This document shows positions 33,736 through 42,008 of a stretch of 42,125 nucleotides of DNA, in pieces. The position numbers were made by a program, and so were the translations under genes. Each line of letters starts with the position of its first letter. Within the stretch, counting starts at the first letter, position 1. Location of the stretch: positions 1 through 42,125 of the forward strand of contig CANQXG010000020.1 of assembly GCA_947627735.1 (NCBI GenBank), in the 5' to 3' direction. This DNA comes from an uncultured Oscillospiraceae bacterium (lineage in GTDB: Bacteria > Bacillota > Clostridia > Oscillospirales > Oscillospiraceae). Below the pieces are notes generated by a model. It ran no database searches. It saw only the letters and a program-made list of their open reading frames with translations, and was not told the DNA's origin.

Positions 33736-34551
33736 ATGGATCTATTGCAGCGGCTGCAGGCCCTTGCCGACGTCCACGTGGGAGGCATCCAGCTGGGGAA
33801 CATCCCCGCCGCACTGCTGGCGCTGGCCGTATGCCTGCTGGCGGGGCGGCTGCTGAGCGGCGCGGTCCGCCGGGTGCTGGACCGGGCCAAGAAGCTGGAC
33901 CCCACCCTCCGGGGCTTTCTCCAGTCCGCGGTGCGCATCCTGCTGTGGGTGCTGACGGCCATCATCGTGGCGGACGCCCTGGGCCTGTCCACCTCCTCCC
34001 TGGTGGCGGTGGTCAGCGTGATCGGCCTGGCCCTGAGCCTGTCCATCCAGAACGTGATGGGCAACGTGTTCTCCGGCATCACCCTGCTGGTGACCAAGCC
34101 CTTCGAGGCCGGGGACTATGTGGACATCTCCGGGAAGGTGGGCACGGTGAAAAAGGTGGGGCTATTCTACACCGTGCTGGACACCTTCGAGAACATGCGG
34201 GTGAGCGTGCCCAACGCAGACGTGACCGCGGCGGCGGTGATCAACTACTCCGCCGAGCCGGTGCGCCGGCTGGATATGACCTTCTCCGCGTCCTATGACG
34301 ACGATACCGACGCCGTCCGCGCCGCCCTGCTGGCGGCGGCAGCCGGGGAACCCAAGGTGCTGACAGACCCCGCCCCCCTGGCGGCCATCCGGGAGTTCGG
34401 CCCCAGCGCCGTGAGCTATGCCCTGCGGGTGTGGTGCCGGCAGGAGGATTACTGGGACGTGCGCTTTCACCTCAACGAGCTGGTCTGGGACGCTTTCCGG
34501 GACCGGGGCGTGAAGATGACCTACGAGCACCTGAACGTGCACATTCAGTAA
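33736..34551 (+). CDS. Small-conductance mechanosensitive channel (MscS family)
   Basis: A 271-residue MscS-type protein: three membrane helices, the third being the pore helix rich in Gly and Ala (SIQNVMGNVFSGITLLV), then the beta domain (FEAGDYVDISGKVGTVKKVGLFYT) and the alpha/beta C-terminal domain. It opens under membrane tension to relieve osmotic shock. AAAGGAGA stands eight bases before ATG 33736; the frame is open for 380 bases upstream as a shadow of rnfB. It probably has its own weak promoter just after the rnf terminator (TATACT at 33700-33705), and is followed by the phenylalanine leader. Confidence 0.94.
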   Translation: MDLLQRLQALADVHVGGIQLGNIPAALLALAVCLLAGRLLSGAVRRVLDRAKKLDPTLRGFLQSAVRILLWVLTAIIVADALGLSTSSLVAVVSVIGLALSLSIQNVMGNVFSGITLLVTKPFEAGDYVDISGKVGTVKKVGLFYTVLDTFENMRVSVPNADVTAAAVINYSAEPVRRLDMTFSASYDDDTDAVRAALLAAAAGEPKVLTDPAPLAAIREFGPSAVSYALRVWCRQEDYWDVRFHLNELVWDAFRDRGVKMTYEHLNVHIQ

Positions 34552-34558
34552 TTGTCTG

Positions 34559-34587
34559 TTGACAAGCGTCCGAAAAAACGGTATCAT
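34559..34587 (+). promoter_or_regulatory. Promoter of the phe leader and pheA
   Basis: TTGACA (34559-34564), 17 bp, TATCAT (34582-34587); transcription would begin near 34594, 24 bases before the leader ATG. Confidence 0.85.
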
Positions 34588-34617
34588 TAGGCAACGACGT
34601 TCGGGAGGCGCAAAAGC

Positions 34618-34674
34618 ATGCGTTTCGGCTTTACCGCGGGTTTTAGCTTCTTTACCTTTGCCTGGCAAAAGTAA
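34618..34674 (+). CDS. Phenylalanine-rich leader peptide of pheA
   Basis: ATG 34618, preceded by GGGAGGCG, opens an 18-codon frame MRFGFTAGFSFFTFAWQK ending at TAA 34672-34674. Six of 18 residues are Phe, plus one Trp, just as leader peptides of phenylalanine operons in Enterobacteria are Phe-rich. It lies between a strong promoter and a terminator directly before pheA. Ribosome pausing at the Phe codons when charged tRNA-Phe is scarce would free the downstream RNA to form the antiterminator. The frame is too short for automatic gene callers. It serves as a sensor, and the peptide itself need have no function. Confidence 0.85.
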   Translation: MRFGFTAGFSFFTFAWQK

Positions 34675-34755
34675 AGCCGATCTTCACTGCGGTAAAATAA
34701 ACGGCATTTGGGCTGTGCGGTGAGATCACCGCACGGCTTTTTGTTTTATTTCTTT
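34626..34755 (+). promoter_or_regulatory. Transcription attenuator of pheA: competing hairpins and terminator
   Basis: Three alternative pairings can be read. Segment 1:2: CGGCTTTAC (34626-34634, in the leader ORF) with GTAAAGCCG (34671-34679, over the stop); also TTTACCGC (34630-34637) with GCGGTAAA (34689-34696). Segment 2:3, antiterminator: GATCTTCACTGC (34679-34690) with GCGGTGAGATC (34717-34727), 11 pairs with one bulge and one wobble. Segment 3:4, terminator: 34712-34722 with 34727-34737, loop AGAT, then TTTTTGTTTTATTT. The 2:3 and 3:4 stems share 34717-34727 and cannot coexist. A ribosome waiting at the leader stop would cover 34679-34685 and favour termination. Confidence 0.85.
34712..34750 (+). 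terminator. Leader terminator before pheA
   Basis: GCTGTGCGGTG (34712-34722) pairs with CACCGCACGGC (34727-34737), one U-G wobble, loop AGAT, then a T-run 34738-34750 broken by one G. It is an intrinsic terminator placed upstream of its gene. Confidence 0.93.
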
Positions 34756-34767
34756 CAGAAAGGCAGA

Positions 34768-35916
34768 ATGACGATGGATCTTGGATCGCTGAAGCAGCAG
34801 ATGGACGAGCTGGACGAGCAGATGGGCAAGCTGTTCGCCCGGCGGATGGAGCTGTCCGCCCAGACGGCACGGACCCGCCGGGACATGGGGCTGGTGCCCG
34901 TGGACCTGGCCGGCCAGCGGGAGGCGAAGGACCGGTTCCAGGCCGTGGCAGGCCCGGAGCTGAGCGGCTATGCCGGGGTGGTGTATTCCACGCTCCAGGA
35001 CGTGTGCCAGAGCTATCTGGCCACCCTGCTGCGGGAACCCAGCGCCCTGTGCGCCCGGATCGCCCGGAGCGTGCAGACCACCAAGCCCCTGTTCCCCGAG
35101 TCGGCCACCGTGGCCTGCCAGGGGGTGGAGGGGGCCTATGCCCAGATCGCCGCGGACAAGCTGTTCCACGACGCCCACATCTCCTATGTGAAGAGCTTCG
35201 AGGGCGTGTTCGCCGCCATCGCCAGCGGCTTCTGCCGCTACGGGGTGCTGCCGCTGGAGAACAGCACCGCCGGGTCCGTGAACCGGATCTACGACCTGAT
35301 GATGGAGTACAACTTCAGCATCGTCCGCTCCGTGCGGGTGAAGGTGGACCACAACCTGCTGGTCCGGCCCGGGACAAAGCGGGAGGACATCCGGGAGATA
35401 TTCTCCCACGAGCAGGCCATCGCCCAGTGCGGCGAGTTCATCAAGACCATGCCCGGCGTGCGGGTGACGGTGTGCGAGAACACCGCCGTGGCCGCCAAGC
35501 GGGTGGCCGAGTCAGGCCGGAACGACGTGGCCGCCCTGTCCAGCCACGCCTGCGGCGCTCTGTACGGCCTGGAGACCCTGGCGGCGGACGTGCAGGACAA
35601 GGGCAACAACTACACCCGCTTCATCTGCATCGGCAAGGACCCGGAGATCTTCCCCGGCGCGGACCGGACCAGCATCATGCTCACGGTGAGCCACCGGCCC
35701 GGCTCCCTGTACCGGCTGATGAGCCGGATCACCGCCCTGGGCATCAACCTGACCAAGCTGGAGAGCCGGCCCCTGCCCGACCGGGACTTCGAGTTCATGT
35801 TCTACTTCGACCTGGAGACCAGCGTCTACTCCCCCCGGTTCATCCAGCTGATGGCGGACCTGGAGGAGATGTGCGAGACGTTCCGGTATCTGGGCAGCTA
35901 TTCCGAGATCGTTTGA
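34768..35916 (+). CDS. pheA: Bifunctional chorismate mutase/prephenate dehydratase with ACT domain
   Basis: A 382-residue P-protein. Residues 1-90 form an AroQ-type chorismate mutase helix bundle (QQMDELDEQMGKLFARRMEL, LVPVDLAGQREAK). Residues about 113-287 are prephenate dehydratase, beginning TVACQGVEGAYAQIAA and containing LPLENSTAGSV and the catalytic TRF motif (283-285). The ACT domain (about 297-375) carries ESRP (332-335) for phenylalanine feedback. It turns chorismate into phenylpyruvate. ATG 34768 follows AAAGG closely; ATG 34774 is an equally possible start. Regulation is by the Phe leader and probably by feedback. The membrane protein gene follows after 34 bases. Confidence 0.96.
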   Translation: MTMDLGSLKQQMDELDEQMGKLFARRMELSAQTARTRRDMGLVPVDLAGQREAKDRFQAVAGPELSGYAGVVYSTLQDVCQSYLATLLREPSALCARIARSVQTTKPLFPESATVACQGVEGAYAQIAADKLFHDAHISYVKSFEGVFAAIASGFCRYGVLPLENSTAGSVNRIYDLMMEYNFSIVRSVRVKVDHNLLVRPGTKREDIREIFSHEQAIAQCGEFIKTMPGVRVTVCENTAVAAKRVAESGRNDVAALSSHACGALYGLETLAADVQDKGNNYTRFICIGKDPEIFPGADRTSIMLTVSHRPGSLYRLMSRITALGINLTKLESRPLPDRDFEFMFYFDLETSVYSPRFIQLMADLEEMCETFRYLGSYSEIV

Positions 35917-41889: not shown

Positions 41890-41892
41890 GAT

Positions 41893-42008
41893 GTTGGCAG
41901 CGACCTATTTTTCCGGTCCGTCTCCAGACAAGTATCGTCGGCACAGTCGGGCTTAACTGCCGTGTTCGGAATGGGAACGGGTGGACCCCCGCTGTAATAG
42001 CCACCAAC
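41893..42008 (-). rRNA. rrf: 5S ribosomal RNA
   Basis: About 116 bases. On the minus strand it begins GTTGGTGGCTATTACAGC and ends CGCTGCCAAC; the ends pair. The conserved core CCCGTTCCCATTCCGAACAC and GTTAAGCCCGA are present. The ends are set by the terminal stem and could be off by a base or two. Confidence 0.96.

Follow-up and report, generated by a model that had tools for sequence, protein, structure and literature searches.

Attenuation by a translated leader peptide is usually associated with Proteobacteria, and T-boxes with Firmicutes. Here we describe a very probable phenylalanine attenuator of pheA in a 42,125-nucleotide stretch of DNA (the window; contig CANQXG010000020.1, assembly GCA_947627735.1) from an uncultured Oscillospiraceae bacterium of the Clostridia, at a locus singled out by a first-pass annotation made from the letters alone. 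The closest described system is the pheL-pheA leader of Escherichia coli, which we take to be the Rfam family Phe_leader. Its Phe-rich leader peptide, alternative antiterminator and terminator, and chorismate mutase-prephenate dehydratase target, described in part in PMC11802643, all have counterparts here. The two differ in phylum, and the Clostridia element has Tyr/Phe relatives before other aromatic genes; the Rfam Phe leader family gave no match at our locus, at the gathering score or at E-values up to 10.

Aromatic leader peptides have also been described before 3-deoxy-D-arabino-heptulosonate 7-phosphate (DAHP) synthase genes. The aroR leader before aroF of Corynebacterium glutamicum is reported to encode a Phe-Tyr-Phe peptide and to respond to Phe limitation, not to Tyr (PMC4046766, PMC11802643); it shares with the leaders treated below an aromatic peptide before DAHP synthase, but belongs to Actinobacteria, has three consecutive aromatic residues and is likened by peptide, not by RNA. 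A figure legend in Stav et al. 2019 lists two upstream open reading frames (uORFs) with Phe and Tyr, tied to shikimate metabolism genes; they come from a study of five genomes, of which Clostridium novyi is one (PMC6429828). By this legend text they resemble our leaders and may belong to the same RNA family, but the portion of the paper drawn on describes no pheA, tyrS or transporter leaders, nor an attenuation model for these uORFs. In another study, uORFC-13-1 precedes aroF in Acholeplasma and combines at least one Phe codon with a terminator (PMC8632094); by description it is similar as a Phe-containing uORF before DAHP synthase, but its 24 representatives all come from Acholeplasma or environmental sequences. 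The 'pheA' motif of Actinobacteria and the Leu/phe leader RF01743 of Lactococcus lactis, as tabulated in PMC2864571, are RNA motifs whose names refer to pheA or Leu/Phe leaders, but from other lineages and without an Rfam match in our window; the pheA motif carries no Rfam number there and is likened by name. The first-pass annotation had treated ribosome-paused attenuation as foreign to most Firmicutes amino acid operons. This holds in refined form, as published reports describe leader-peptide attenuators in Firmicutes for other amino acids and operons, namely His in bacilli, Peptostreptococcaceae and Erysipelotrichales and Leu in the Staphylococcus aureus ilv-leu operon (PMC2965389, PMC9413887, PMC5794164). 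In the open-licence literature, outside which most subscription journals lie, we found no account of a Clostridia pheA preceded by a Phe leader. The mechanism is classic; what is new is the lineage, an RNA family absent from Rfam and the matching of codons to genes.

Within 34559-34774 of the window, on the forward strand, a near-consensus promoter, a ribosome site, an 18-codon leader open reading frame (ORF), an antiterminator, an intrinsic terminator and pheA follow one another. The sigma-70-type promoter TTGACA-N17-TATCAT (34559-34587; TTGACA 34559-34564, TATCAT 34582-34587) agrees with the consensus at 11 of 12 positions and is the sole site in 34300-35000, where shuffles expect 0.2. Hexamers resembling TTGACA and TATCAT/TATGAT also lie upstream of the leader in aligned relatives of sufficient length. 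A Shine-Dalgarno sequence, GGGAGG, can be read directly at 34603-34608, followed by the leader ORF MRFGFTAGFSFFTFAWQK (34618-34674, stop 34672-34674) with Phe at codons 3, 5, 9, 11, 12 and 14. With every ATG, GTG and TTG counted, the two strands of the window hold 916 ORFs of 10-40 codons, and no other reaches 25% Phe or 30% Phe plus Tyr; this speaks against a chance ORF, in line with the first-pass annotation.

Segment 2 (34679-34690) begins right behind the leader stop codon. It pairs with 34717-34727 to form the antiterminator, 11 bp with one bulged U, as indicated by pairing, covariation and a swap test. The covarying segment 3 (34712-34727) supplies both the 3' arm of this antiterminator and the 5' arm of the intrinsic terminator (34712-34742), whose stem joins 34712-34722 to 34727-34737 in 11 bp before TTTTT. 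Upstream, the minimum-energy fold shows nested 1:2 helices: an outer, protector helix pairing 34630-34639 with 34687-34696, the latter overlapping segment 2, and a hairpin (34650-34676) formed by the final Phe codons and the surroundings of the stop codon, which covaries when Phe-type leaders are set beside Tyr-type ones. For the strand 34595-34746 the folding energy lies 3.7 sd under that of shuffled sequences (z = -3.7). The gene behind, pheA (34774-35916, with a further in-frame ATG at 34768), encodes a 380-residue chorismate mutase/prephenate dehydratase, identified by NCBIfam prephenate dehydratase and PRK10622 models (best E 7.6e-64), with every chorismate mutase/prephenate dehydratase match below its curated cut-off. 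Promoter, ribosome site, six-Phe ORF, stems 2:3 and 3:4 and target gene had all been placed correctly by the first-pass annotation; stem 1:2 fared less well, as set out below.

From its sequence and that of its relatives, the element is very probably a Phe-specific ribosome-mediated transcription attenuator, a switch that probably turns pheA on only when phenylalanine is short. RNA polymerase would start at about 34594, with a ribosome translating the leader behind it. If charged tRNA-Phe were scarce, the ribosome would wait on the Phe codons and open the 1:2 helices (34630-34639 and the hairpin 34650-34676), freeing segment 2 to pair with 34717-34727 of segment 3; no terminator would then form and pheA would be transcribed. 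With Phe plentiful, the ribosome would reach the stop and cover the first part of segment 2. On its departure the 1:2 helices would re-form, segment 3 would pair with segment 4, and transcription would end near 34742.

We looked for pheA in 35 genomes of the same genus. Long matches were found in 33, while G015 and G031 gave a weak match to the chorismate-mutase part only; the upstream region in G003 ends at a contig end, leaving 32 readable. The leader precedes pheA in 22 of these 32, with its first codons cut off by a contig end in L023 (G005). As the first-pass annotation had expected, their alignment shows a Phe-rich ORF kept together with both-side changes in stems 2:3 and 3:4. Codons 5, 9, 12 and 14 are TTT in 22/22 leaders, and codon 11 is Phe in 21. 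Alignment gaps fill 8 cells in the ORF (five from the contig end of L023, three from one in-frame codon of L029) versus 118 in the linker.

Covariation supports the mutually exclusive stems. In the antiterminator 87% of cells are paired, with row L002, misaligned by one base, counted as broken; the pairing register is the best among all slides, and both-side changes affect 3 pairs and 11 cells (as high in 2/500 and 0/500 shuffles). The terminator is 97% paired in the genus set, with 14 cells changed on both sides (0/500), and across several genera (19 rows) both-side changes reach 8 pairs (15/500) and 43 cells (0/500). In the same 19 rows the hairpin of the last codons and stop changes on both sides in 5 pairs (2/500) and 12 cells (0/500), and passes between Phe- and Tyr-type leaders through CUUUUAC:GUAAAAG, CUAUUAC:GUAAUAG and CUUUACC:GGUAAAG. 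An alignment-free swap test gave a mean of -20.1 kcal/mol for segment 2 with its own segment 3 versus -15.3 with a foreign one, a difference reached by 0/20000 permutations; it covers 47 of 48 leaders, L029 being dropped as the script did not find its stem. A short Phe-codon-rich ORF, an intrinsic terminator before the gene and a covariation-backed, mutually exclusive antiterminator are thus present together. The stem 1:2 proposed by the first-pass annotation (34626-34634 with 34671-34679) forms all its 9 bp in our genome and in some others of the 22 aligned leaders, but most relatives lose at least one of its outer pairs and the nested helices fit better. With 2 pairs (489/500 shuffles) and 9 cells (30/500) changed on both sides, it was set aside as the protector in that exact form.

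We then modelled the ribosome at successive positions, assuming a footprint as in E. coli that reaches some 15 nt downstream of the P site, and computed the cost of freeing segment 3 in 20 of the 22 pheA leaders (L023 and L029 left out) and in 17 leaders of aro operons, introduced below. In pheA leaders the cost was 12.6 kcal/mol with the ribosome stalled, fell to 7.6 once it stood at the stop and was 7.4 in its absence; in aro leaders the three values were 9.1, 5.3 and 5.3 kcal/mol. Cost on the Phe/Tyr codons exceeded cost at the stop in 20/20 pheA and 17/17 aro leaders, that is 37/37, which together with the joint conservation and covariation favours the ribosome-paused reading put forward earlier. 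The stalled-minus-stop difference averaged 4.47 kcal/mol, against -0.06 (sd 2.1, 222 shuffles) when leader body and linker were shuffled. An equilibrium pairing-probability model, which counts any upstream pairing of segment 3, separated the states better in the 17 aro leaders (0.66 stalled, 0.36 at stop, 0.37 none) than in the 20 pheA leaders, where separation was poor (0.84, 0.65 and 0.69). For the protector, fold and energy model agree, while outer-helix covariation is weak, as is the probability model for pheA leaders.

A covariance model (R1) built from the 22 pheA leaders and searched in the genus returned further, weaker matches, including one in our own genome at G000:C5:78888-79019 on the minus strand. 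There, a Tyr/Phe leader MEHIFFGGYYYYYFFAK with five Tyr and four Phe is followed by a terminator (L146:9989-10120, minus strand, L146 being G000:C5:68900-79500) and by the operon aroF-tyrA-aroB-aroA-aroC-chorismate mutase-aroEK-aroQ. Its products are DAHP synthase, prephenate dehydrogenase, AroB, AroA, AroC, chorismate mutase, AroE-AroK and type II dehydroquinase, several of the model matches being below curated cut-offs. All 17 same-genus loci of this kind that we fetched carry a Tyr/Phe-rich leader. The Phe-branch gene thus has a Phe leader, and the operon of the common trunk and Tyr branch a Tyr plus Phe leader. At 4 of 13 loci inspected (L129, L135, L136 and L138), R1 had picked up a plain terminator that lacks any aromatic leader, and the model was set aside.

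A second model (R2), built from 19 leaders of several genera, matched 166/400 genomes and 57/106 genera of the family and 32/391 genomes and 22/223 genera of the class (both at E up to 0.001), and 5/398 genomes of the phylum (E up to 0.0001), each tally including our own genome. All 35 class matches outside our genome were inspected: 24 precede DAHP synthase (L196 by eye), 4 pheA, 1 tyrS and 1 a phenylacetate-CoA ligase; the other five (L210, L214, L216, L221, L223) have neither an aromatic leader nor an aromatic gene and were rejected. A minority of the family matches was inspected. Among 22 such loci, BLAST identified the next gene as DAHP synthase in 18 and as pheA in 1; the other three are our own operon (L167), a further locus before DAHP synthase (L175) and one without BLAST assignment (L168). 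Forty further loci were picked for second hits or diversity, six of them class matches already counted and L222 a repeat of L210. They comprised 25 before DAHP synthase (L241 and L251 by eye), 2 before pheA (L231 from its first residues only), 7 before TrpX-like substrate-binding proteins, 1 before a sodium/solute symporter, 2 before phenylacetate-CoA ligase and 3 with nothing relevant. Three of four phylum loci show an aromatic leader before DAHP synthase; L281 does not. NCBIfam models run on five proteins placed tyrS above the cut-off, and G732 PheA (prephenate dehydratase models), the L220 phenylacetate-CoA ligase, the symporter and TrpX (L237) below those of their best models; the TrpX-like proteins other than L237, and the ligase at L224, were recognised by eye. 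As R2 was trained on aromatic codons, its preference for aromatic leaders is in part a product of its design, which does not apply to the gene that follows. We regard the pheA element as belonging to a wider Clostridia family of Phe/Tyr leader attenuators.

The Phe and Tyr codons of a leader mirror the gene behind it. In 121 typed leaders the median Tyr/(Phe+Tyr) was 0.00 before pheA (n=27, 5 genera), 0.45 before DAHP synthase (n=85, 35 genera) and 0.67 before TrpX-like genes (n=7, 4 genera), with 0.60 for the single tyrS leader and 0.83 for the single symporter leader. By genus means, pheA differs from DAHP synthase at p = 0.0014, and TrpX-like from DAHP synthase at p = 0.015. All three genera with both pheA and DAHP synthase leaders (g1, g32 and g169, the last from a different family of the class) show the split. 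On balance we favour the view that Clostridia hold widespread, homologous aromatic leader attenuators outside Rfam, with the Phe:Tyr mix tuned to the target (Phe for pheA, Phe plus Tyr for DAHP synthase and aro operons, mostly Tyr for tyrS and the TrpX-like and sodium-symporter genes), which would have been moved, gained and lost repeatedly and would take the place of the T-boxes of other Firmicutes. Target-following codons across Clostridia would make the amino-acid specificity of genes and transporters readable from short peptides. The natural series from Phe-only through mixed to Tyr-rich leaders could inform the evolution of sensor codons and the reasons for which a lineage gives up T-boxes in favour of ribosome stalling. 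The family also hints at the way in which Oscillospiraceae of the gut may react to aromatic amino acids in the diet.

Several observations weigh against the attenuator reading or its generality. The first-pass annotation had held that relatives keeping pheA with neither Phe codons nor stems would tell against it, and alongside the 22 with a leader, ten of the 32 readable genus-mates (G024, G032, G020, G017, G018, G011, G023, G019, G010 and G008) have pheA without one. One pheA leader, in G732, is mixed (Tyr/(Phe+Tyr) 0.40). For our own leader, the equilibrium model of the truncated transcript hardly sets stalled (0.84) apart from ribosome-free (0.81; 0.63 at the stop). In the genus set 228/500 shuffles attain the 3 terminator pairs with both-side changes, and across genera 268/500 attain the terminator pair-type count; the outer 1:2 helix changes on both sides in 2 pairs and 5 cells, with a covariation score reached by 66/500, and the statistics of the shuffles and swap test include relatedness among leaders. 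Third codon positions show no excess of variation (58 minor cells, versus 82 at first and 72 at second positions), so that what the data support is the reading frame and its codons, without extending to the peptide itself. Pairing of the same bases could explain this constraint, as codons 5, 12 and 14 also lie inside pairing arms. The last two points would equally suit a general translation-coupled attenuator, in which any slow ribosome allows read-through and the Phe codons stem mainly from UUU/UUC-rich, stem-forming RNA. We regard that as unlikely, since codon 9 is TTT in every aligned leader though outside the helices, DAHP synthase leaders form the same hairpin with Tyr codons whose partners change along, and the Tyr/Phe ratio follows the downstream gene.

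That the RNA senses tRNA, a metabolite or a protein as a riboswitch, such as a T-box, without a translated leader, has in its favour that T-boxes occur in our genome (three matches, one above cut-off) and that a T-box-like GGTGGCATCGCGG stretch stands before trpE in two genus-mates (by eye). The three T-box matches (RF00230) lie elsewhere and none precedes pheA; no Rfam family reaches its gathering score around the leader or matches at the element in ten related loci scanned, and the sparing of the ORF by alignment gaps is that of a translated frame, making this highly improbable. Around the leader, E-values up to 10 returned five microRNA, sRNA and lncRNA models far below gathering scores, dismissed as chance-like. 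An ordinary terminator of the upstream gene beside a chance ORF, with pheA served by another promoter, would fit the leaderless relatives that have a promoter directly before pheA and for which an attenuator is dispensable. Here the promoter stands upstream of both ORF and terminator, and these two are conserved jointly with the antiterminator and covary, so we give this explanation very little credence beside a Phe-specific attenuator.

Among the leaderless genomes, G024, G032, G020 and G011 have a similar promoter directly 5' of pheA, and the attenuator there is either lost or never gained; TTGACA..TATCAT lies directly before pheA at the leaderless loci L008, L009, L012 and L113 (L113 being the same place as L007). 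On a pheA tree of 36 rows, which counts the unreadable G003 as leaderless, the leader label changes 8 times, as low in 23/500 shuffles, and its distribution needs several gains or losses. Outside the genus, G139 likewise carries a Phe leader in front of pheA; none was seen at its sister on the tree, L048. The remainder of the best 80 listed matches, 63 loci outside the genus (L048-L110), was screened for ORFs of 8-45 codons with at least three Phe in the 500 bases upstream, which flagged 15 loci, none with a leader of the MRFGFTAGFSFFTFAWQK form by eye. There is no upstream sequence at L078, nor at L039, a near relative.

We also considered other amino acid genes. pheS was found in 8 of 9 genus genomes, and inspection of the 8 upstream regions by eye showed no Phe leader of the pheA-leader form; 6 of these 8 loci were scanned and had no Rfam match. 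ilvB had one above-cut-off match in nine genomes, with no leader before it by eye, and matches only below cut-off in our own genome. trpE turned up in 2 of the 9 genomes, with no match in our own genome (86% complete), which may be why the leaders have no Trp codons. The trpE and ilvB results in our genome may reflect auxotrophy of the lineage for Trp and branched-chain amino acids. Both trpE loci with the T-box-like stretch (L257 in G005 and L258 in G002) also have a terminator, a different Trp-sensing system in the same genus; L257 has no Rfam match at the gathering score.

Some of the rarer targets deserve mention. At L203 (G778) a Tyr-containing leader MTTFLRNRSHKQAYYYLFS and a terminator precede tyrosyl-tRNA synthetase (NCBIfam tyrS), with no Rfam match at the gathering score. 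Tyr-rich leaders stand before TrpX-like ABC substrate-binding proteins at L227, L228, L233, L235, L237, L250 and L254, which suggests that these transporters carry tyrosine, and at L225 (G095) a Tyr-rich leader MACEYYYSYYFRNNKSDL precedes the sodium/solute symporter. In our own genome, a below-cut-off T-box match (L116) lies before an ABC substrate-binding ORF of TrpX-like look. Phenylacetate-CoA ligase follows R2 matches at L220 (G532) and L224 (G095), with a Phe-rich leader clear at the former and not at the latter; such leaders could link arylacetate assimilation to Phe supply. Past the end of the aro operon of our genome, on the opposite strand, lies a TPP riboswitch (L146:2141-2252, plus strand). 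Finally, a 5S rRNA gene is located close to the end of the window (41892-42008, minus strand).

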